A program made the translations under genes and the position numbers. 64,000 nucleotides of DNA, from contig JAAOMT010000276.1 in assembly GCA_016748015.1 (NCBI GenBank), forward strand, positions 344,088 through 408,087, read 5' to 3'. This document shows, piece after piece, positions 19,784-64,000 of this stretch. Source of the stretch: Geosiphon pyriformis. Lineage: Eukaryota; Glomeromycota; Glomeromycetes; Archaeosporales; Geosiphonaceae. Positions within the stretch are counted from its first letter, which is position 1; each line of letters begins with the position of its first letter. The notes below the pieces were generated by a model. The model worked only from the letters and a program-made list of their open reading frames with translations. It was not told the origin of the DNA and ran no database searches.

Positions 19784-22700
19784 CTATGCACTTATATAAA
19801 CTGAAGCCATATTACCAATACCTGCATAAAACAAACAACATTTACAATACCCAAAACTAATGCCGAGTACATCAGCAACACCCAACAACCTAATCACCCC
19901 AGCCAAAAGCCACATAGAAAAACCAGAAACAGTGACAGAAATAGAACCATCATGTGGAATCAACTTATTCTTTTCTATAATGGCCTGGTGTTTCACATAG
20001 ACCAGCCAGATATTATTACAAAATGTAAGACAAAACTCCCGTACAAAATTCACAATATTGATCACTGCCACCTTAGGATCCTTGTAAACAGAAACAGACT
20101 TGTGATACCAATTGCCAAAAACAAAACCCTTACACAGAGCCATACTAACAGTCATATCTGAAATGCAAGTCGACAACAACTGTAATATGCATGAAGAAAA
20201 ACGAGACAGACCAGAACACACCTCTCAAACAGCTGCATAAGTGTCCAACAAATTGGCATGACTATTAGCATCAGAAGAGCAAGAAAAGACATGGTCTGAG
20301 ACTTCAACCTCACCACAAAACAAACAAACTACACTGAGATAACCTCTATTATACAAATGCTTTTGCACAGCAACAGAAAGACAATGATGAAGGGCTTTCA
20401 TGAAATATGTACGAAAGCCAGCCATCCAAATACTAGTAAAACCAGTCGCCATGTGAGAATTTGGGTGCCACACCAGAAAAGACCTCAACCAGTCAATATC
20501 AGCACACAAACAACCTGAAACAACCCGGGAACCAGAACCAACCTCCCAATGCATGCGATGGATTGACCTGAATATGTCATGAACAAAATGCCTCGAATTA
20601 CTAGAAACCGTATCAACACCAGCCTTCAAAAACCTCTCATTGACCAAGTGGAACAGGTGCCAGGCAGAAAGGGCAGTATTCTTAACCAGTGCATCAGCAC
20701 GTTTGTTGTCTAAGACATCCAAATGACCCTTAACTTTAATTCAATTAACATCAAAATTTTTGCGACAAATAACATTGGCGATGTGATGATGCTCAATCCA
20801 ACAACAATTCCTGAAATCAGAGCCAACTGATAAAGACTCTGATCTGCAAGCATCAATAGCCGCCTGGCTGTCCGAGAACAAGTTAACCAAATAAAAAGAA
20901 GGAACACACTCCAGAGCTAAAGCAATGGCCTACAACTCTGCCAAAGTAGAAGAAACCAAACCAGAAACTCCCACACCCAGACCTGAATCAATGTCCTCAA
21001 AGAAAACCACAGCATCAGCTAACATGTCAACAGTGTCCAAGTTACTCAGAGACCTATTTGTGTACACAGAGAGGCAGGCGGCACCTACACTCAACAGATC
21101 ATTACAAATAACACCAAAACCAAGAGACTGACGGATGTCAGAAAAACCACCAACACCCTCATGAGGGAAATGACTAGAAGGAGAAGTTACACTACCAAGA
21201 AAATGTACAAAGAGATCAAACCAGAAGAAGACCAGGCCATGGAGGTCCAGTCTTTTCCAATGCTTGAAAGTTTTCCAATCAAAAACAATGCCATTCTGGT
21301 CACAAAGCTGTTCCACAAAAGCAATACCATAATGCCTGAAGGAGGAAACACATTTGAAGAAAATTGTCTCACCGAGTACTAGAGACATAGGAGTACTGCA
21401 CCAAAGACAAAAAGCACCAGTCAGAAAGCCACTCAAAGACAAATCACACCTGGAAAAAATATGAACCACATCTGCCAAAAAGTTGTTTAAAGGGCTAACT
21501 CTAACACAAACAGGAAACAACAAAGGATGATGAGGATGCCAGCTGAGAACCTGGAGATTGTGAAACCTATGAGAAAACAAGTGACCCAAAACACCAACCG
21601 AATTCACAAAAACAATAACAGAAGCTGACTTGCTCTTAGCTTGAATCTGCTCAAAAGTCTTTAAATTGTACAAGGAAAAATAATGAAGTGCATTATTGGA
21701 AAAGTCCAAAGGCAGTCCAGATTTGGATTTCAAGCCCTTGCAAATCAAAACGTCCCATTTATTACACATACTGAGAGAAATAAAACTGAACTGAGTTCTG
21801 TAGCTGATGATAGGAAAGAGAACTGAAGACACCAAATAAGCAAACTATTTATCTGAAATAACTTTTCTCAGAATAAGATTGATGAAAAACTGAACATCCA
21901 AATGCACCTTAACCAAGCTAGACTTCGAAAGACCATCAGAAAATAAAAAAATACCCAGATAATAATGAGATTCACCTCTTTTAGCAATGGAAATTGGCAT
22001 ACCACTGATAGTTAGATAAGGAGCAGCGACCCGACAGTTGATAAAAATGGCCATAGTTTTGTCATTGTTTATCGAAATGTCATTTAAACGAAAGAACTCA
22101 CTAGCAACATTGAGGATGTGTTGTGTAGCAGCTTGGCTGCTACCGACCCAAATAGTATCATCAACAAAAGCACTAGTGGCCAAAAACAATATCAGCCCAG
22201 CTTGAAATTTTACCTGGCCAGTCTTAGAAATGAAATAAAAAATCAACCTGTAATCACAAATGCTCTCCTGTCTTTTAATCTCACACAAAAGCAAGTCATA
22301 AAATATGCACCAGAGAAGTGGTGAAAAAACCTTCCCCTGATCCAATCTATCATGAACATAATATCCATTAGTCAAACCAAAATTTGTCATCACTCTGTTA
22401 GTGCGATCATTATGAATGCTACCAAAAAATCTGATAAATTTGTCACACATTTTGATCCTAATCAAACTTCTCTTGAGATGCTCCCAACCAACAGAATCAT
22501 AAGCTTTGCGTATATTCTGTAAAACCAGCCACAATTCTTGGTTCTTTTCTAAAGCATTTTCAATCACTAAACCAATAGCAAAGATAGGCGATTGAATAGA
22601 CATACTTTTCAGAACAGAGAAATTGTTCCCATGGAGAACATCAAAAGTGCTACAAGCCAGAGAGATCTGATCTGAAAAAATCTTAGAAAGAACCTTACAA

Positions 22701-24472
22701 GCTGTCTTAATCAAAGCAATAGGATGGGTATTTGTAAGAACTCCCTCTCACCCATAAGGTTTAGGAATCATTGAGACCCAGATTTCTCTTCAAGGTCCAG
22801 GCACTGATTCACTATCCAAACAAAAATTTAAGAGCACCAAAAGCATATCCAAAACTGACTTGTCACAGTGTTTCCAAAGTTCATTAGAGATATCAGAAAA
22901 ACCAGCTGCTTTCCCATCAGGCAAATTTGAAATAACACCAAACATCTCATCAAAACCAATTGAATGCATTATATTAGAGAAGACACCATTGAAAACATAA
23001 TCCAAAGGCAGAAATTGCCTTGCCCAATCATCAGAGATATCAGAAACCACTACACATTTCTTAGTCCAACCCTCCATGATTCCATCTACCTTAGATTTAA
23101 CCAATTCAGGCTCCAGGACTAACTCCCCACCATCCACCAAATGATTCAACACCACTTTATGAAAAAGATGCTTCAAAACATTTCTAATAGTGTGACTCTT
23201 ATCCACCTCAAAACTCTCCATTCTCCTCTCAATAGCCTGTCTTATATGAGATTCTTCAGCACACTTAGATTCCAACAACTTAGAAGAGCGGTAAGACTTC
23301 CTCACCTTAGCCAGCCTAGAACAGATCGCATCAAAACTGGTGCCAGAAAGAAACAGAGATCTAACTGGCAAAGTGCCCACAGAATCAAGCCTGTTCTAAG
23401 TATTCAACAACAAGGCAAAATTTCCACCAAAAACCAACCAAGAAGTCTTTGTCAGTTTAGACACAAGTAGCTCCAGTTTATAAAACCGGGAAGATACCTT
23501 ATTAAAAACACAATTAAAACCCTTAAACCATTTTTTCTTGAACATTCCACTAGCCACAAAAACCATAACTTTATGAACAATGTCCCATATTGCATCCAGA
23601 TCAGAAAACTGCTCAGCCATAACAAACTTATCTAAGAACATAACAGCATTAGCAGCCATAGCATTTCTGAATTCTGACCACTTAATCTTACTGGTATTTT
23701 TGATATCATACTTCCAATGATCTCTATTAGCTTGTTTGTGCAGTGAATTCAGCTAGACATTGAGCAGGCCACCCAATCTCACAGAAACATAAACAGCCTT
23801 GTGATCAGTATCAAAATATTTCTCAATGCCATCCACACCATGATTCACCACTGCACCAACCAAATTAGAAAAAACTAACATATAGTCAATTGTCTTAGTG
23901 ATACCACGAGAATTGTACCAAGTAGGTGATTTTACAAAAAAGCTCTCTCCCAGAGAGTTAATCAAACCCAAATCAAAACATTTTTTGAAACTGGCACATC
24001 TGTGCGAACCATCCTCATTAAAATCACCACTAAGAATAACAAAAAAAGACTCATTAACGGCTTTAGCAATGAGAAAATTGATCTCATCAGCCTGAGAAAA
24101 CCGAGCCACTGATAAAGCACCAGCATAGAGCCCCAAAATAGACACTGAAAGTTTATTTTTGAAAAGCAACTTGATGGATAAGAGCCGACCAGTCACCTCA
24201 GAGATCTTGTAGACGTACTTTGCTAAAGAAGAATTCATGACGATTAACACCCTAGCACCCAAAAAACCAAAATCCAGACCAGAAGTAAAAACCCAAACAC
24301 CATCAAATTTGTTGGCCAACCATGGGTGAACTTTCCCTTTAAGCTTTGACTCTGTAAAAATAGAAACCAAATTGTCTATATTCTTGTGTCAACGAATGAT
24401 ATCATCTTGCTTTACAGGATTGTTCAACCCATAAACATTACATATAGCAATTTTTCATACCAGACCACTCAT
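19784..24472 (-). pseudogene. LINE ORF2, copy B: endonuclease, reverse transcriptase, RNase H
   Basis: The frame spans 1,563 codons from ATG (24472-24470), with about ten nonsense codons and no frameshift. An apurinic-type endonuclease is shown by VILSGDFNEDGS, TKTIDYMLV and DTDHKAV (about 24060-23800). Reverse transcriptase is shown by NLPDGKAAGFSDISNELWKH, LVLQNIRKAYDSVGW, RLDQGKVFSPLLW and SAFVDDTIWVGSS (FVDD for the usual F/YADD; 23000-22100). RNase H is shown by STLAEL, LFSDSQAAIDA and GHLDVLDNKRADAL (20960-20680). A Cys/His motif (CLFCGEVEVSDHVFSC) and a tail with NNIWLVYVKHQAIIEKNKLI follow. Such proteins nick target DNA and copy the RNA in place. Confidence 0.85.
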
Positions 24473-26304
24473 TGAAAAAGAGAGAAAGGAAGAGCACCAC
24501 CCACCAAAGCCAAACCATCCAAGTGCACTGATAGGCTCATGACCGAAGCAGAGAGACCTTCCAACATGTTTTCCAATTTCACAACCTCAGGTGAGACAGT
24601 TGAACCAAGAATGGCAGCAGTTTTGTCACTAGTGGCATCATCTGAACCCACTCCCATCACTATATCTTCCCCTTGATTCTGCAATGGGGGGGTCACTGGC
24701 AGCTGACATCCAGGGCTAGACTGGAAAACTGCCAGTATGAATGAGTCTAACCTTTTAGCCAACTCACCAATTTGTCCTGTGAGACTAACAAGACTGCTTT
24801 CAATATTCTTTAAATGGTCTTCCAATTCACTATTAACAGTTAGGAGAGGTTTACCATAAGATATGGAACCAGATTAAGCTAAACCACCAAAAGCCAAAGG
24901 ATGAAAAACAGGGGCAGATTTTCTTTCATATATCTTCACCAGACAGAACTGATCCTGAGCTGAGAGAGGAGCTCTTTTGCTCCTAGGACTTGAGAACACA
25001 CCAGCAGTATGACAAGCGAGAGAAGTATGACCAGAAGTTTTGCAAATTGAGCACAGTACAGTGGTTAAACGAGACCATTAGAGACCAACACTTTTTATAA
25101 CAGGAGTGTTTGCCATTGCCTAAATAAAGCTACCTTCAAAATCGAAGCACACAGTGGCACAACGTGCCCAGACATAACTAACAGAACTGCATTCAATAAC
25201 ACATGTTTTCCCACTGACTGAACCAATGAAGTCCCAAAGATTATGAGTGTTGGTGCCCATGGGGAGAGTATAAAGCAAAGCCCTAAACTCATCTCTGGTA
25301 TCTCACATTTGTTTGTCAACATTGGCCCGGGCCACATGCACTGCATTTTTCCCAATAAGAATAAACTACTCAGCCACCAAGAGATCAGCCTGAATTTGAT
25401 CCTCCAATTCGACAATTATCTTTTGTTATAGACCCACCAACTGTATCTTGATTGACTTAATAAACCCAAATTCAGAAATGGCTGCATGCACTGCCTTAAT
25501 GGAAGTTTCCACAGGAATTTCTTTCAACACAATTGCCCAATTCGTATGATTGTTAATAGGGCGCTTAAGATTGGTATTTACTACAACACCACGATTATTT
25601 GCCAACTGTGCAGCTGCCATCATTGTCTTTTCATAAGTGAAAGATGCCTGGATGATTCCACCAAATTTTGAGGGAGTAGAGACCCCCCTAAAACCATTTA
25701 TACCTGAAAAGATTTTTCTGACAAAATTGACTTTTTCATAAAAGGATTTTCCAGCCACCATTACCAAATCAATATTTAAAACGAAGAATTTGTGAACAGG
25801 TACTTGAACGGATGGTTTGACCAAAAAAGGAGGTGGGAGAAGAAGAGAATCATCCAACACATCATCTTCTGCATTGACAATATCATAATCAATCACATCC
25901 AGTGGCTTCTCTAACACTTTTTTGGTCTTTACATGCAAATCCTTTGGTGTTTAATCAGGATCTCCTCCTGCAAAAGTACTATTATCATCATAGTCTACAC
26001 TGGTTTTTTCAACCAAGCATTCTTCTTCCATGTCAATACTCTCAGATTTCATAGTGTTATCAGTCTCAAAACTCCATGAACAAACACCAAGAGCTTTGGC
26101 AGCAATCCCTTTATTATCAATACTCTTTTCCAATACACCACTCTTCCTCTTCTTCCTTGATGCGACAGCCTTGAAACCACTCTCAGAACCAGAAGCTTTA
26201 ATGGTCTTTTTTATAACAGCAATAACAGAGCCAACAGTGGCTTCGTAATCGAAGAATGGTTTTAATTTATCGTACTGAATGGTAAAAAACTTCTTTTGAA
26301 AAAA
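24469..26304 (-). pseudogene. LINE ORF1, copy B (RRM-like plus Cys-rich region)
   Basis: A single frame of about 612 codons with several stops. The N-terminus is basic (SRKKRKSGVLEKS). The middle has PVHKFFVLNIDLVMVAGKSF and FSGINGFRG. An RRM-like region follows (NWAIVLKEIP, AISEFGFIKSIKIQLVGL), then a Cys-rich zone (CSICKTSGHTSLACHTAG, about 25050-25000), and a C-terminal helix region (LEDHLKNIESSLVSLTGQIG). The product would bind element RNA. No ATG is seen at the start; the in-frame stop upstream is at 26307-26305. The terminal TGA (24471-24469) overlaps the ORF2 start. Confidence 0.75.
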
Positions 26305-56059: not shown

Positions 56060-59000
56060 TTACAAGTGAAGTCCAAATACTGCTTATAACTATATATCAA
56101 AGAATTGATCTAAAATAGGTGTGAATTATGCACTTTCTATATATGACCAGTCATTTGGACCAATTAGGACAACATTATGTATTTATATGAACAAAAACTG
56201 AGCCACTAACACCAAAAAAAAATAAGCAAGATTTGTGAAAGCCAAAATGCATGTCAAAAGTCTTATCAATACCAAGCAGCTTGACCATATTAGCAGAAAC
56301 CTCCAAAGCCAAACCAGAAACTGATATAAAAACCAAACCATCCAAAAAAATTAGTCTATTTTTTTCTATATAGGCCTGATGTTTTACACAAACCAACCAG
56401 ATATCATCTCTAAAAGTAAGACTGAGAGAATGCACAAATTCAATAACTTTCAAACCAGCAATTTTGGGATTATAGAATATGAAAACAGCCTTGTAAAACC
56501 AATAAGTAAAAACAAAGCCCTTATAAAGAGCTGTAAACACAGAAAAATCTGAAACACAGAATAACAATAGCTGTAACACACTTGAAAAAGAGTGAAAAAA
56601 ACTAGAAAGTGCCTTCTAAGAATTCACATGGGAATCTAATATATAATGATGAATAGAAACATTGACCTCACAAGAAAAGCCATGATCTAATATCTCCACA
56701 TTATCACAATATAAACACAATACACTAGGGTAATATCTATTATAAAGACACTTCCAAATAGCAACAGGCAGCCAATAATATAAAGCTTTCATAAAATAAA
56801 TATGTGTATTAGCTAAGAGTCTGTTAGTAGAAATGGTGGCCATATGCAAATTAGGATGTCACATTAATAATGAGCTGAGCCAATCAACATCCAAGAGCAA
56901 ACTGCTTGCCAAAAACTTAGAACTAGACCCAATCTCCCAATGAGCCTAACAAATAAAATAATAAATATCATGAACAAAGTGTCTAGAATTGCCAGAAACA
57001 ATATTACCATTAGCCATTATAAAGAGTTCATTCAAGTAAAAAGAAAGATACTAGTTAGAAAGAGAGACAATATTAGCAATCATGTTAGTATGCTTATTTT
57101 CCAAAACACCAAAGTGACTTTTTATCTTGTTTCAACTAACTCTCAAATTTTTACTATGAATAATGTTCACAATATGCCAGTGCTCAACTCAATACTAATT
57201 ACGAAAATCAGAACCCACCAGACCTAATTCCAACTTACAAGCATCCAAAGCAAATTGATTATCTGAAAATAAGTTAACAGAACTAGACAAGAAAACACAC
57301 TTCAGAGCCAATATGATAGTTTGTATTTCTGCCAAAGTAGATGACATCAAATCTGACACATCAACACCCAAACTTACATTAATATTCTCAAAAAAAACTG
57401 CAGTACCAGTTCTTTTGCTAACTGTGCCCAGACTTTTTAGAAACCCATTCATATTGCCAGAAACAATCCAAGAAAAACACTCATAAACAGACACAAAATT
57501 ACAAGAACCAAAAATGTTTGAAGGATCAACACCATTCAAAGCAGTAGAAAGAGAAGAAAAGAGAGTTGCATTATTAAGAAACACAACAAAAAGTTTAAAC
57601 CACTTAGGAATAGGTTCACAGGGGTCCAATTTCTTCTATCACTTAAAGATATACCAATTAAAAATAGCACTATGATAATCATGAAGCTGATCCACAAATG
57701 CAATGCCATATCTTTAGAGTAATGGAAAAGAGTTGGAAAATTTGGACTTACCAAGAACAGCAGACATGGGAACCCCACCACAAAACTGAAAAAAATTGGC
57801 TAAAAAGCCATCCAGAGACAACTTGTACTCAAAAAGAATATGAATCATGCCTGCCAAAAAGTTATTGAAAAAACTAACACAAATATAAACAGGAAAACTC
57901 AGAGGATAAGTAGGGTGCCAACATAAAACTTGCAAATTATGAGATCTGTGAGAAAACAAGTGACCTAAAATTCCACTAGAGTTTACAAAACTGACAAAAA
58001 AAGCCATATTACTTTCAGATTGAATTTGCATGAAAGATTTCAAACCATAAAAGGAGAGGTAGTAGATCATGTTACCAGGAAAATTGAGAGGTAAACCAGA
58101 TTTAAATTTTAAGCCTTTATAAATCAAAACATCCCACTTGTTGCACACATTAATAGGAACAAAGCTAAACTGCATCTTATAACCAATAATAGAATAGAAA
58201 ACAGCTGACATTAAATACAAGAACTGCTTATCTAAGACAGTCTTTTATAGAACCAGATTGGTAAAAAAATGAATGTCCAAATGTGTCTTAGCCAAACTAG
58301 GCTTCAAAAGACTCTCAGATAACAAGAAGATACCTAGATATTAATGGAATTCATTTTTTTTGCAATAAAGATGAGTAAACTACTGATAAACAAAAAAAGT
58401 TGAACAACTCTGCAATTAATAAGAATGGCTACTGTTTTGTCATTATTAATAGAAATGTTATTAATCCAAAAAAATTTACTAGCAACATTGAAAATATGTT
58501 GAATAGCATTTTAACTGCTACCAACCCAAATCGTGTTATCAACAAATACATTAGTAGCAAAAAAAAAAAAAGCCCAGTCCTAGATTCAGTATGACAATTT
58601 TTAGAAATAAAATAAGAATTCAATCTATACTTATACACACTTTTCTGATGCTTAACTTCACATAACAGGAGATTATGAAATATTTGTTACAGAAAAGGAG
58701 AAAAAACCTCTCCTTGGTTCAGACCATTATACACATAATAACTATTGGTTAGCCCAAAATCAGTCATAACTCAGTTGGTGCAATTTCTGTAAATACTACC
58801 AAAAAATTGATTGATTTGCTACACATTTTAATCCTGACCAAGTTTTTCCTAAGATGCTTCCAGCCAACAGAGTCGTATGCTTTTTGTATGTCCTGCAAAA
58901 CCAGCCAGAGCTCTTGGTTCTTTTCCAATGCATTTTCAACCACCAAGCCAATTGCAAAAATAGGAGATTGTGTTATTATGTCTTTTAAAACAGAAAAATT

Positions 59001-60132
59001 ATTCTTACAAAGAATATCATAAGTGCTATATGCTAAAAAAATTCCATCAAACAGAATCTTGAAAAGAATCTTGTGAGCTGTTTCAATTAAAGCAATAGAG
59101 TGGGTATTCATGAGAACATCCTTCCACTCATACAATTTGGGAATCATCAAGACCCAAGTCTCTCTTCAAGAACTGGGTACTGATTTACTAAATAAACAAG
59201 AGTTTATAAGCTCTAAAAACATGTCCAAAACCACCCTGTCACAATGTTTCCAAAGTTCATTTGGGATGCCAGAAAGACCAGCAGCTTTATTATCAGGAAG
59301 ATTGGAAATCACAACAAAAAATTCATCAAACTTAATTGAACACATCACATTTGAAAAAGCATTATCAAAAACATGCTCCAACAGTTGATATTGATAAGAC
59401 TATTTCTCAAATATATTATCAACAATTACATAACTCCTAGTTTGGCTCTTCATAATCACATCTATCTTGGTCTTTACTAGATCAAGTTCTAAAATTAGTT
59501 TATTATCAATGACCAGATAATTCAATACCATCTTGCTGAAAGGATGCTTTAGCACACTTCTGATGGTATGACCTTTGTTTACCTCAAAACTTTCTATTCT
59601 TCTGTTAATTGCATACTTAATGTTTGTCTCCTCCACTTTCTTGGATTCAGTAAGCTTGCTAGCACAATATGATTTCCTTATGCCAAAAAGAATTAAATAC
59701 ACACAATCCAAATCAGCCCTAGAATTCAGAAGAGTTTAAACAGTTAAGGCGTTATTATCATTCAAAGAAGACCAGTAATCCAATAAAGCAACAAACTTAC
59801 CACCTAGGCTCACATGAGAACACTTGACAATTTTTGACACCAGAATTTCTAACTTATAAAACCAAGACAAATCTTTGGTAAAAACACTATCAAAACTCCT
59901 AAACTATTTTTTCTTGAAAACATTACCTGTCAAAAGACACATTATTTTACTAATAACATTCCACATAGCATCCAGATCAGATGCCCTTATGAACACAACA
60001 AACTTATTAGAAAACATCACAGCATTTAACACTGTCATCTCCTGGAACTTGTTCTATTTGGCAACATTTATATTCTTAATATCATACTTCTAGCAATCTC
60101 TATTTGCCATTTTGTAAAGAGAATTCAACCAC
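56060..60132 (-). mobile_element. LINE copy D, 5' part displaced by an LTR element
   Basis: The 3' tail and UTR (56060-56174) and the 3' two thirds of ORF2 are present. At 60132/60133 LINE sequence stops and an LTR begins. The endonuclease and ORF1 are therefore either beyond the nested elements outside the window or lost. Confidence 0.8.
56175..60132 (-). pseudogene. LINE ORF2, copy D (RT, RNase H, C-terminal tail; 5'-truncated)
   Basis: Reverse transcriptase motifs are VISNLPDNKAAGLSGIPNEL, LVLQDIQKAYDSVGW, FGLTNSYYV, GEVFSPF and VFVDNTIWVGSS (FVDN, last catalytic Asp changed to Asn). RNase H is shown by STLAEIQTIILALKCVF and NLFSDNQFALDACK. Then CLYCDNVEILDHGFSC and DDIWLVCVKHQAYIEKNRLI. 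One frame holds throughout except for a stretch between T runs at about 58800 (T6) and 58570 (T13), where a one-base loss and a later gain cancel. About fifteen nonsense codons. Confidence 0.8.
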
Positions 60133-60992
60133 TGTTACTCATAGAATATAGGAAATATATTAACATATAAATTAGCCAATCAGAAGTAACCATAGTAAAG
60201 ATAGAATTCCAAAATTTTTCTCAGAAGAATTGCAGGATTCCAGAAATTTCAGAATTCTCATACAAGGAATTATAAGATTCCAGAATTCCAGAATTTCTCT
60301 CAAAGAAATTGCAGGATTTCAGGAATTCCAGAATTTCTGGTGTGAAGAATTGAAGAATTAAAAAATCTTAATTATGTATATATAGCAGTAGTGCTAAAAG
60401 TAAAAAAGACAGAATCTTTTAGTTAGAAACTTTTTAGTTTAGATTTAATCAAAACAACTTTTCAATTACAAATATTAATAAATAAATTATTTTATATCTC
60501 AATTTACTCTTCACTATCAACTTTTCATATTGATAGTCTCAAATACTTAATCATACTGAAACAATAGCTCTTGATTACAGCTATTGACAGAATACTAACC
60601 ATTATTGTCTTGGCTTATTTGCTTTTATTTTTCTTTTATTTTCTTTGTTACTTTCTTTTGTTTTACTAACTTGATTATAAGGATTCACATGTGGAGGTAC
60701 TAACATCAGGATATAGCACTGGTAAAAGACTCAGGAATAAGGGTAGACACTCGGAATTGAGAATATCTTACTAGGAGATTTACTGGCCATCATGCTGAGA
60801 AAGAAATTGACAAAACTGTGGTTTCGGAAAGCTATGGATAAAACTATTAGTTAAAATCTCTGTTTATTATACAAAGAACTACATCAAAATCTTCAGATAC
60901 AAATAGCCTACAGATATTACTCAAGTCATTAATTAAGCACCAAGTTATGAGTTTGTTATTTGCTTTGAGACCCCAAATAATCACCTATAACA
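60133..60992 (+). repeat. 5' LTR of LTR retrotransposon element 2
   Basis: 860 bp beginning TGTTACTCATAG and ending CTATAACA, with TTTGGTGCTC directly after it. LINE coding sequence abuts the left end. The U3 part has a repeated motif AATTGCAGGATTYCAG (about 60228 and 60308). The solo LTR at 4153-4938 is the same family. Confidence 0.85.
60375..60384 (+). promoter_or_regulatory. Likely TATA box of element 2 LTR
   Basis: TGTATATATAG, kept as GTATATATAA at the same place (4361) in the solo LTR, 240 bases from the LTR start. Confidence 0.5.
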
Positions 60993-61011
60993 TTTGGTGC
61001 TCTCTGTGAGG
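60993..61011 (+). promoter_or_regulatory. Primer-binding site of element 2
   Basis: TTTGGTGCTCTCTGTGAGG follows the LTR end. The TGG sits two bases inside, as in element 1, and the rest resembles the site of element 3. Confidence 0.6.
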
Positions 61012-61472
61012 TATAATTCAACAGAAAAACCAACACTACAACACTTATTTAAAACAGTGACAGAACCCAAAGAAACAGGGACAAACCATCTGAGATTTGT
61101 AAAATCTTTATTCCAACACTATCATGCTCACCTTGGATTAACAAATAATAGTTGGCCAACAGAATCAGCTTTCAATTGCTATGTTAACAAAAGAATAGTA
61201 TACCACTTGGAGGCCAAGGAGATCCAGAATCTGCCTTTAACAACTTTTTCAGTGAATTGCTCCAAAGCACCACTTTTTCACAAAACTATCTATTTGCACC
61301 CCTAATTACAGAAATAAACAAGGAAATTAAAAAATATATCAAGCAGAGATTTTCTATTATTTTTGCCAACAAAAAAAAAGGAAGGTTACAAACACCAACA
61401 GAAACACCAAAACAAATCTAACTACCCACTTGGAAGAAACAAAGATTTGATTTACCTGTTAATCCATCATAT
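61012..61472 (+). pseudogene. Element 2 internal region, gag start, cut by element 3
   Basis: One frame reads STEKPTLQHLFKTVTEPKET, SLFQHYHAHLGLTNNSWPTE and VNKRIVYHLEAKEIQNLPL up to a stop at 61303-61305, then more stop-containing coding-like sequence. The PBS just upstream fits the start of gag. Not matched to a named domain. The insertion of element 3 at 61473 separates it from the rest. Confidence 0.5.
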
Positions 61473-62112
61473 TGTTACAGTTGAAACTTATACTTCTTAT
61501 TAATTATCACATGTATTAGCCATTAATGTCATATAAATTAGCCACACTATTTTTAGATAGTAATCATTGACCTGATCATTGACCATTTTTGACAGTTATA
61601 TAAACAATGAATCTTTTAGCTGTAGAAAAACATGTTCAAAATAATCAAAAATAAATAAAATAACAACTTTTATCTTAATCATTCTCTTATCACTAATTTT
61701 CCTTTCCCTACCTTCAAGTATCTAAACATCTTGAGATAAAAAATTACTTGTTGGTTAATTTTTACCCTTTTTCTGAAATGTATAAGTATAGCATTTGAAG
61801 ATTATTGAATAAAACATGATTGAAAAGTACATCTAATACTTGATATTGAATTCTAAAAGTGCTGATATAAGGCATAGAATTATACCAAATGTGATTATTT
61901 GTTGACAGTATAAACTATTTCTCTACCTTCAAATTTCCCAGTTACCTTTTGAAAAAAATAGTGACTTAGATATTTTATGAGACTGATCTTGTATATTGAA
62001 TTCATACTTATTCAATTCGCTCTTTGAAGTTGAAATCCCTTTGATTATTTTTATTATCCTACAATTCTGTTCTTCCTTGCTATCCATTAACTTGTTACTC
62101 CAATCCATAACA
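61473..62112 (+). repeat. 5' LTR of LTR retrotransposon element 3
   Basis: 640 bp beginning TGTTACAG and ending CCATAACA. A TATA-like TTATATAAAC lies at about 61596. A PBS and gag follow. It lies within the internal region of element 2, so it is a younger insertion. Confidence 0.75.
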
Positions 62113-62118
62113 TAAAAG

Positions 62119-62135
62119 TGGTGCTCCCTGTAAGG
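62119..62135 (+). promoter_or_regulatory. Primer-binding site of element 3
   Basis: TGGTGCTCCCTGTAAGG, six bases after the LTR end. It differs from the element 2 site at two positions, so both probably use the same tRNA, not identified. Confidence 0.6.
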
Positions 62136-62149
62136 TTGTCAGAATCCAC

Positions 62150-63718
62150 TTTGTTTTTTATTGTATAGGTAATTATTCATACCTGTCACAACAATTAGAA
62201 GAACACTTTGAAACACACAACAAAAACAATCTAGACTTTATTGAACTCAATCCTTTGCTCTCCTGCTTGATTTGCTTCCCCATTGAAGATCAATTCAGTA
62301 AACAATTTCAAGATTTTTGGAACTGGTTCCTAAACAAGCATTCAGCTGAAACCTACACAGCCTATACAACTTATTACTTTGATCAAGCTTATTTTGAAGA
62401 CAACTTTAAAGAAAGAAACAACAGCATCAATCAACTTTTATACTCCACAACTTTTGAACAACAGCCCCCTAATTCTGAATATCTGAATCATCAAATCCAC
62501 ATTTGGATTGCTGCCCATCAAGCAACTGAAACTCTTTTTGAAACAGAAGAAGAAAGCTACCAAACTGCCTCTGTTTTTGACCTTTTATCAAGCAAATCAG
62601 ACTCATCTACACAAACAGTTACTTCTGAACCAATGGCTAATAACCTCATGCAAGCAAATATTCTGGCCACCCTTTAAAGTATACAAACTACTCTAGAAAG
62701 AAGAAACAATACCCCACTACCATTATTTAGAGGTAATGCATAAGATCCAATTGAATAGTTGGATGATTTTAAGAGAGCTGCCATAGCCAACCAATATGAT
62801 AAAAAATACAAGTTTCAAATTGTTGGTGGCTATCTCCAAAACTCTTCTGCTACCTGGTTTTCACAAGAAACAAATGCCAATGCTCAACACTGAATAATCA
62901 GATGGACACCAATCAATGCTGGAAAAGAAAATACCTCTTTCACTATCTGGTTTGAGACCAAGTTTAGAACCCCAATATTAATATCCAAATGGTGTATAGA
63001 ATTGGAAAGAAGAACTCAAGACCCTAGAGAAGTAGTGACTGAATATATTAAAGCTATCAGAAAGCTAATCAAACGTGTAGACTCCAAGAAAAACTGAACA
63101 AAAGAGCAAAAGATTTATTCTTTTACAAAAAGATTAAGAACTGATCTATTGTATGCTTTTTGGCCTCTCTTGGCTTTAAAAGATAACCCAACAATGGACA
63201 TGGCTATTGAACTGGTACAAAAAATTAAAGATAACCAAAGAATGCATTTAAGATTCACACTTCCAGTTTTTGCTCCTGCTTCTGTCATTGCTCCAGCTCC
63301 ACAAATGGCTGCTGCCTCTTTTGTTGCCCAAACTCAAGACCCAAATGAACAATTAATAGATAGACTTACAGCTAATCTTGTCTGGCTACTGGAACCTTTG
63401 GCCCAAGCAGTTAGAAAAAATTAACAACCTTAAAGACCTAGATTTGAATCCCACTTTAATTAGCCTCAACAACCATCATATCAAAGACAGCAAAATTATG
63501 GCCTATTTGTGTGCTATTACTGTGGACTAACTAGACACTTTTTAAGAGACTGTAACAATCCTCTATTGCCTCCTCCAGCTCCTAAAAATAATGACACCCA
63601 GAATAACAGACCCAACAATAATAATGTTCTCAATCAAAGATCCAATCATGTCAACATCAATTTCTTTGAAAAGGATCCCTTAGTGGAAGCCACTGTTTAT
63701 CAGCCTTTAAACTGGTAG
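62150..63718 (+). pseudogene. Element 3 gag with zinc knuckle, about nine nonsense codons
   Basis: One frame from about 62150 to TAG at 63716-63718 with no indel. The N-terminal part has FIELNPLLSC and FWNWFLNKHSAETYTAYTTY. The capsid-like part has LDDFKRAAIANQYDKKYKF, FQIVGGYLQNSSATWF, WCIELERRTQDPREVVTEYI and TKRLRTDLLYAFWPL, typical of Ty3/gypsy gag. The knuckle CYYCGLTRHFLRDC (CX2CX4HX4C) is at 63512-63553. Stops fall where Gln or Trp is expected (for instance after GNA and before LDDF). The product would form particles and bind RNA. Confidence 0.8.
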
Positions 63719-64000
63719 ATGCACCTTTAAAGGGTAAAAGTGCAAGCCAACCAGAAGAAAATCTTTTTTATGCTTTTAACCTAACTGATGATGACCATAA
63801 CATGAATGAACTAGCAATCAACACTTTTGAACCAAAAAGAAAGAAGAAGAAAGCCAAAATTGATTTCGTTATAAATTCAAAGAAAGTCTCCACATTAACT
63901 GCTGATAACAATGAACTACCAAAAACTAAAGTTTTTAAAAATTCTCCAAAATTGGAACTTCCAGAAATTGTACAAAAATCTGGACCATATTCTGTTGTCA
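63670..64000 (+). CDS. Start of element 3 pol, in the -1 frame relative to gag
   Basis: The frame is open from 63670 to the window end, overlapping the last 49 bases of gag, with no ATG near the start. It reads FKLVDAPLKGKSASQPEENL and later a basic run KRKKKKAKIDF. Protease would be expected next, beyond the window. Entry is most simply explained by -1 frameshifting at 63706-63712. Confidence 0.65.
63706..63743 (+). promoter_or_regulatory. Candidate -1 ribosomal frameshift signal (gag/pol)
   Basis: T_TTA_AAC (63706-63712) is in the correct phase: the zero-frame codons are TTA and AAC. The gag stop TAG is four bases on. After an 8-base spacer, 63721-63743 can fold as GCAC/GTGC plus TTTA/TAAA with one C-A mismatch and loop AAGGG. 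Slippage leads into the open pol frame. Confidence 0.6.

Follow-up and report, generated by a model that had tools for sequence, protein, structure and literature searches.

A probable programmed -1 ribosomal frameshift signal at the gag/pol junction of an abundant Ty3-type retrotransposon family of Geosiphon

A Ty3-type retrotransposon family in the genome of Geosiphon pyriformis very probably makes its Gag-Pol protein by programmed -1 ribosomal frameshifting, judging from the arrangement of its reading frames. The signal lies at the gag/pol junction and consists of a slippery heptamer T_TTA_AAC in the gag phase, a gag stop a few bases further on, pol in the -1 frame, and a potential RNA structure after an 8-nt spacer. 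It was read initially in a single copy at the end of a 64,000-nt stretch of DNA (the window; contig C294, positions 344088-408087), and the same layout was then found in 52 of 52 junctions across the genome. The signal thus appears genuine and is probably functional. The features of the window copy are collected in Table 1.

Table 1. Features of the retrotransposon copy at the end of the window (window coordinates)
Feature	Position	Strand	Basis or remark
5' LTR (TGTTACAG...AACA), approximate bounds	61473-62112	+	genome matches; TG...CA ends read from sequence
Putative primer-binding site TGGTGCTCC...	62119-62131	+	TGG site 6 nt past the LTR; no tRNA matched
gag frame (frame of the TAG at 63716), with in-frame stops	62111-63718	+	reading frames
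CCHC knuckle CYYCGLTRHFLRDC in gag	~63512-63553	+	read from sequence
pol, -1 frame, open to window end	63670-64000	+	runs on along the contig
Slippery heptamer T_TTA_AAC	63706-63712	+	read from sequence; family-wide comparison
gag stop TAG	63716-63718	+	starts on the fourth base past the heptamer
Stem S1, 5' arm	63721-63727	+	8-nt spacer from the heptamer; 1 of 7 pairs non-standard in this copy
Stem S1, 3' arm	63736-63743	+	bulged A at 63739
Putative pseudoknot stem S2, 5' arm	63729-63734	+	AAAGGG, within the S1 loop
Putative pseudoknot stem S2, 3' arm	63763-63768	+	CTTTTT here, CCCTTT in many copies
Alternative outer stem CUGGU/ACCAG	63712-63716 / 63750-63754	+	seen in minimum-energy folds

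The Element

The window ends in a Ty3-type LTR retrotransposon, whose 5' part fills the last 2.5 kb. The LTR-like repeat was delimited by searching the genome with window 59600-62600. Many matches elsewhere start at query positions 1860-1874; others start at 1962-1968 and are accompanied by a further piece beginning at ~1861-1874. Four separate matches end at 2511-2513, which places the repeat at ~61465-62112. The putative primer-binding site is also found past an LTR-like end in another copy. No direct repeat of at least 60 nt was found within locus L009, the 3' part of which is disrupted.

Decay is evident in the window copy, whose gag contains in-frame stops. From the end of the LTR onward the gag frame is open (62111-62677), and the first in-frame ATG comes only at 62633, deep in protein-like sequence; the gag start region of this copy looks degraded. 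The domains are seen best in other copies. A zf-CCHC match is over the cut-off in L029 (E 3e-6) and just under it in L026 (E 5e-4); no such match was called in the piece from the window copy itself. One other copy carries Retrotrans_gag (35.2 bits), RVT_1 (125.6 bits) and RT_RNaseH_2, followed by Integrase_H2C2 and rve downstream of the RT. A gag with a CCHC knuckle and the order RT-RNase H then integrase assign the family, by its predicted domains, to Ty3/gypsy (Metaviridae). An aspartic-protease motif, LDSG, is present in pol beyond the window, where an Asp_protease_2 match (L009:3758-4444, E 7e-4) is below the cut-off.

Two irregularities were seen in pol. At L097:1540-1853 the RT-RNase H and integrase lie in different frames, the change falling inside the RNase H match; this is probably an indel of that one copy, a second recoding site being the alternative. 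Downstream of the window copy, at L009:7390-9156, there is an opposite-strand integrase-like piece (rve_3, 26.3 bits, just under the cut-off) and an RT piece recognized by eye without a Pfam match. These pieces are probably another element inserted in or beside the window copy.

The gag/pol Junction

The gag codons across the heptamer are CAG CCT TTA AAC TGG TAG. Thus TTTAAAC is in the phase that the initial annotation had given it, and the TAG does begin at 63716, four bases on. The -1 frame opens just past a TGA at 63667 and has no stop from 63670 to 64000, as had been described; up to the same point there are 15 stops in the +1 frame and, starting with the one at 63716, 7 in the 0 frame. 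The gag/pol overlap, earlier put at about 50 bases, is 49 nt (63670-63718).

The heptamer taken by itself is a weak signal. The initial annotation had cautioned that TTTAAAC is not rare in AT-rich DNA, and the caution is justified: the window (28.8% G+C) contains it 16 times on the + strand and 12 times on the - strand. In 20,000 codon shuffles, built on a 183-codon gag stretch from one other copy, an in-phase canonical heptamer of any kind fell within the last 11 gag codons in 5.9%, and TTTAAAC in 0.67%. Chance is excluded because the layout recurs over the family, not because of the heptamer alone.

Copies across the Genome

Two sets of copies were drawn from the genome (124.7 Mb searched, 406 contigs). 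The first was obtained by DNA similarity to the last 601 nt of the window; the best 40 of 903 first-look candidates, 84-100% identical, were scored. The second consisted of 17 regions hand-picked from 150 RT matches for varied profile bounds. The family zinc knuckle is present in 12 of these 17, and all 12 have the junction; L081 and L091 are mostly masked, and the family junction is absent from L084, L085 and L095. Together the two sets supply 52 junctions (40 plus 12).

The layout does not vary among the 52 junctions. In every one it is the -1 frame that best matches the first 40 pol residues, with at least 13 identities against at most 3 elsewhere; the lowest match, in L011, is accompanied by a 1-nt deletion 51 nt downstream. 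A 0-frame stop is likewise present in all 52, located 9 nt past the start of TTA in 41 and 6 nt past it in 11. Intact copies with gag and pol in a single frame, named at the outset as one observation that would speak against frameshifting, were not seen among them. Over 200 codons the -1 frame is stop-free in 22 of the 40 DNA-similarity copies, the stops in the other 18 being what decay would give, and in the 0 frame each of the 40 has 10-20 stops. The -1 layout is, from the sequence comparison, ancestral to the copies seen, and the proposal of -1 frameshifting as the family's route to Gag-Pol is strengthened accordingly from one copy to many.

Of the 52 junctions, 50 have TTTAAAC and 2 have TTTAAAT. 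The genome was also searched for a pattern in which seven free bases stand between fixed flanks, TATCAGCC-N7-TGGTAGG; it occurs at 148 places, copies with other flanks falling outside this count; among 100 listed, 94 have TTTAAAC and 6 have TTTAAAT. Conservation of the heptamer had been suggested as a test, and it proves to be a weak one. In 350 aligned columns of the 40 copies the differing letters comprise 1157 transitions and 169 transversions, and columns with at least 39 of 40 letters alike make up 176 of 207 A/T-major columns vs 19 of 143 G/C-major columns. The copy differences point to decay by C>T and G>A changes, a direction deduced from this skew. Since A/T columns hardly vary anywhere in the family, constancy of the heptamer's six T/A positions is expected without selection, and heptamer conservation was rejected as proof of selection. 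Because the constancy of TTTAAA is uninformative, the case rests on the frames, the stops and the phase.

The G/C transitions among copies L010-L048 in the junction region are of the kind expected from a RIP-like process or from the deamination of methylated cytosine.

A search for relatives outside the genome with a 14-row pol alignment confirmed 0 of 84 pattern-matched stretches in viral contigs and 0 of 91 in prokaryotic genome contigs. The conservation observed is accordingly that within one genome. If the host is a fungus, no relative would be expected in such collections. The large set of Sel1 repeats in the genome (1991 first-look candidates, of which 150 were scored) and the style of its transposons and genes are in keeping with a glomeromycete host, without proving it.

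Position of the Slip

The -1 frame is closed shortly before the heptamer in most copies. A -1-frame stop lies 21 nt upstream in 38 of 52 (26 of the 40 and all 12 RT-picked copies), so that in these a slip is confined to the ~30 nt before the gag stop, where TTTAAAC is the sole canonical slip site. A second canonical in-phase heptamer between -36 and +12 was found in two of the 52 copies, L044 (at -36) and L047 (at -30). Neither is inside a confined stretch; in L047 the extra heptamer lies upstream of the -1-frame stop at 21 nt. On mammalian ribosomes U_UUA_AAC ranks among the most shift-prone heptamers (PMC5009743).

Downstream RNA Structure

The stem first described after an 8-base spacer is confirmed, S1 starting at 63721. 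The description of the structure as a stem-loop stands for the stem and is less certain for the plain hairpin, as a pseudoknot may form instead through pairing of the S1 loop with a downstream arm (S2). Pseudoknot potential, evaluated by a stacking-energy search, was found in 38 of 52 copies, 25 in the S2 register of Table 1 and 13 in a neighbouring register; the best-scoring register of the window copy is the nearby alternative, one of the 13. Under the scoring used the pseudoknot is absent from 14 of 52 copies, one of them RT-picked. Against dinucleotide shuffles (52 copies) the score has a median p of 0.013, against synonymous recoding (51 copies) one of 0.007, and 11 of 12 RT-picked copies score among the best 0-1.1% when compared with 15,624 other positions; these values are to be read with scoring rules fixed after the pairing was seen and with copies and null positions that are not independent.

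Simple folding is less distinctive. The 60 nt past the heptamer in the window copy give z = -1.65, with 15 of 200 shuffles as good, a modest result, and six copies range from z = -0.94 to -2.83, only mildly better than shuffles. The covarying stem that the initial annotation had proposed to look for did not appear: none of the seven testable pairs, drawn from S1, S2 and the outer stem, showed an association (Fisher p 0.10-1.0), two further pairs yielding counts only. Covariation thus favours neither the pseudoknot nor the plain hairpin.

The main competing interpretation accepts a slip at TTTAAAC and assigns the stimulation to an extended stem-loop, in which the outer CUGGU/ACCAG helix is added to S1, or to no structure at all. 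The nested stem appears in the minimum-energy folds, which by their nature cannot show pseudoknots, and the outer helix has five standard pairs in 36 of 51 copies. However, its 5' arm overlaps the last base of the heptamer and the first base of the stop, and would presumably sit inside the ribosome, and the pseudoknot potential exceeds that of the shuffled and synonymous controls. A stem-loop or no stimulator is a serious possibility of the second rank, and the modelling inclines us, without much firmness, to an H-type pseudoknot as the 3' element.

Other Explanations of the Frame Change

Pol could be made separately, by termination at the gag stop and reinitiation at a downstream AUG (window 63802), with no Gag-Pol fusion. 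A pol-frame ATG is indeed located ~84 nt past the gag stop, and among 14 aligned copies the residue is Met in 11 and Ile in 3. However, the stretch from heptamer to ATG is open in the -1 frame and similar at the protein level, which reinitiation would not need, and both the in-phase heptamer and the tight overlap would be left unexplained. This route is improbable. Still less probable is the joining of gag to pol in a spliced mRNA. The junction offers a GT (GGTAGG or GGTAGA) and AG dinucleotides downstream, but the near AGs that restore the frame give introns of 26 or 32 nt (counted by hand, near acceptors), too short for usual spliceosomal introns.

A further explanation, raised with the single copy, was an indel in decayed DNA, gag and pol having shared one frame in the ancestral element. 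Decay of the window copy is plain from its gag stops, and other Ty3-like elements of this genome do keep their knuckle and protease motif in one frame. These were surveyed in a comparison set of the 30 loci with the best Retrotrans_gag matches, none of which has a blastn match to 1.8 kb of the frameshifting family. A C-x2-C-x4-HWK knuckle is present in 25 of the 30, and 13 of the 14 loci that show both knuckle and protease motif have them in one frame, the exception being L065. With pol in the -1 frame at 52 of 52 junctions, however, an indel in a single decayed copy is no explanation, and the worry first raised about it is answered. The open frames agree: in 149 of 150 Gag matches the frame is 544 aa or less, the remaining one, of 1845, extending into masked N. 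A whole gag frame is ~530 aa, as estimated from one copy. No intact fused gag-pol frame was found among the 150, a result that is informative only where gag is unbroken. An indel origin of the layout is barely credible.

Two other recoding events were also considered. Stop readthrough is disfavoured by the dense 0-frame stops of the 40 copies, and a +1 shift by the 15 +1-frame stops before 64000 and by the -1-frame pol peptide of all 52 copies.

Other Retroelements in the Genome

A second Ty3-like kind has successive ORFs in one frame (L063 and L078; L084 and L085 by eye). We take L084, L085, L091 and L095 to be a separate Ty3-like kind with a dUTPase-like domain upstream of the RT; in L084 and L085 the stretch from this domain to the RT is one continuous frame. 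The window also contains fragments recognized by eye as LINE-type (non-LTR) retrotransposons on the - strand, at 20225-25950 and 57714-59711. In the former, RVT_1 matches 21848-22747 with 55.8 bits, and 20933-21844 is without a Pfam match.

Relation to Known Systems

Fungal elements such as MAGGY are presumably possible comparators, and the coronavirus IBV has a spacer similar to that of the Geosiphon element. IBV also shifts at the same heptamer, U_UUA_AAC (PMC5009743); it is an unrelated element, and the H-type pseudoknot of the Geosiphon family is a candidate. In a 2003 survey, as reported in PMC5009743 (section 11), 28 of 51 animal elements have pol in the -1 frame, the balance between +1 and -1 being less one-sided in fungi. 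The -1 LTR retrotransposons of animals and fungi in that survey resemble the family described here in having a classical heptamer near the gag end. Yeast Ty3, which shares the superfamily and has RT, RNase H and integrase as well, shifts +1 at GCG_AGU_U (PMC5009743), whereas the Geosiphon element has pol in the -1 frame. PEG10 is alike in its Ty3/gypsy origin, -1 shift and pseudoknot stimulator, the last being a candidate here, and unlike in being a domesticated host gene (PMC5009743; PMC2800197). Among the leading literature-search results no paper was recognized on frameshifting in glomeromycete retrotransposons or on this family, and the word "frameshift" has 0 occurrences in the main text of PMC8647823 and PMC11075540.

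Proposed Mechanism and Implications

What the sequences show is the phase of the heptamer, the frames and the stops, all constant over 52 copies; that the ribosome slips, how efficiently it does so and the pseudoknot are inferred. With UUA in its P site and AAC in its A site, a ribosome would slip one base back onto UUU and AAA and continue in the pol frame. Most ribosomes would continue to the stop, the third or fourth codon counted from UUA, and produce Gag. The ribosome is probably made to stall by the RNA structure that starts 8 nt downstream, and the best candidate for this stimulator is an H-type pseudoknot with an S1 of at most 8 bp including one bulge, an S2 of ~6 bp, an L1 of 1-2 nt and an L3 of 16-21 nt. 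A more speculative and rather unlikely extension is that two competing folds set the Gag:Gag-Pol ratio: on free RNA the extended stem would cover the final base of the slip site and extend to the gag stop, and its melting by the ribosome would allow refolding into the slip-driving H-type pseudoknot.

The mechanism is well known, and the family is an additional example of it. What had been a guess from a single copy is raised to a family-level case, that of an abundant Ty3-type family with a probable -1 shift at U_UUA_AAC. An annotation that expects one frame would wrongly call the copies of this family broken at the junction. If the two-fold reading is true, frameshifting and single-frame Ty3-like lineages in one genome would provide a natural comparison of strategies.
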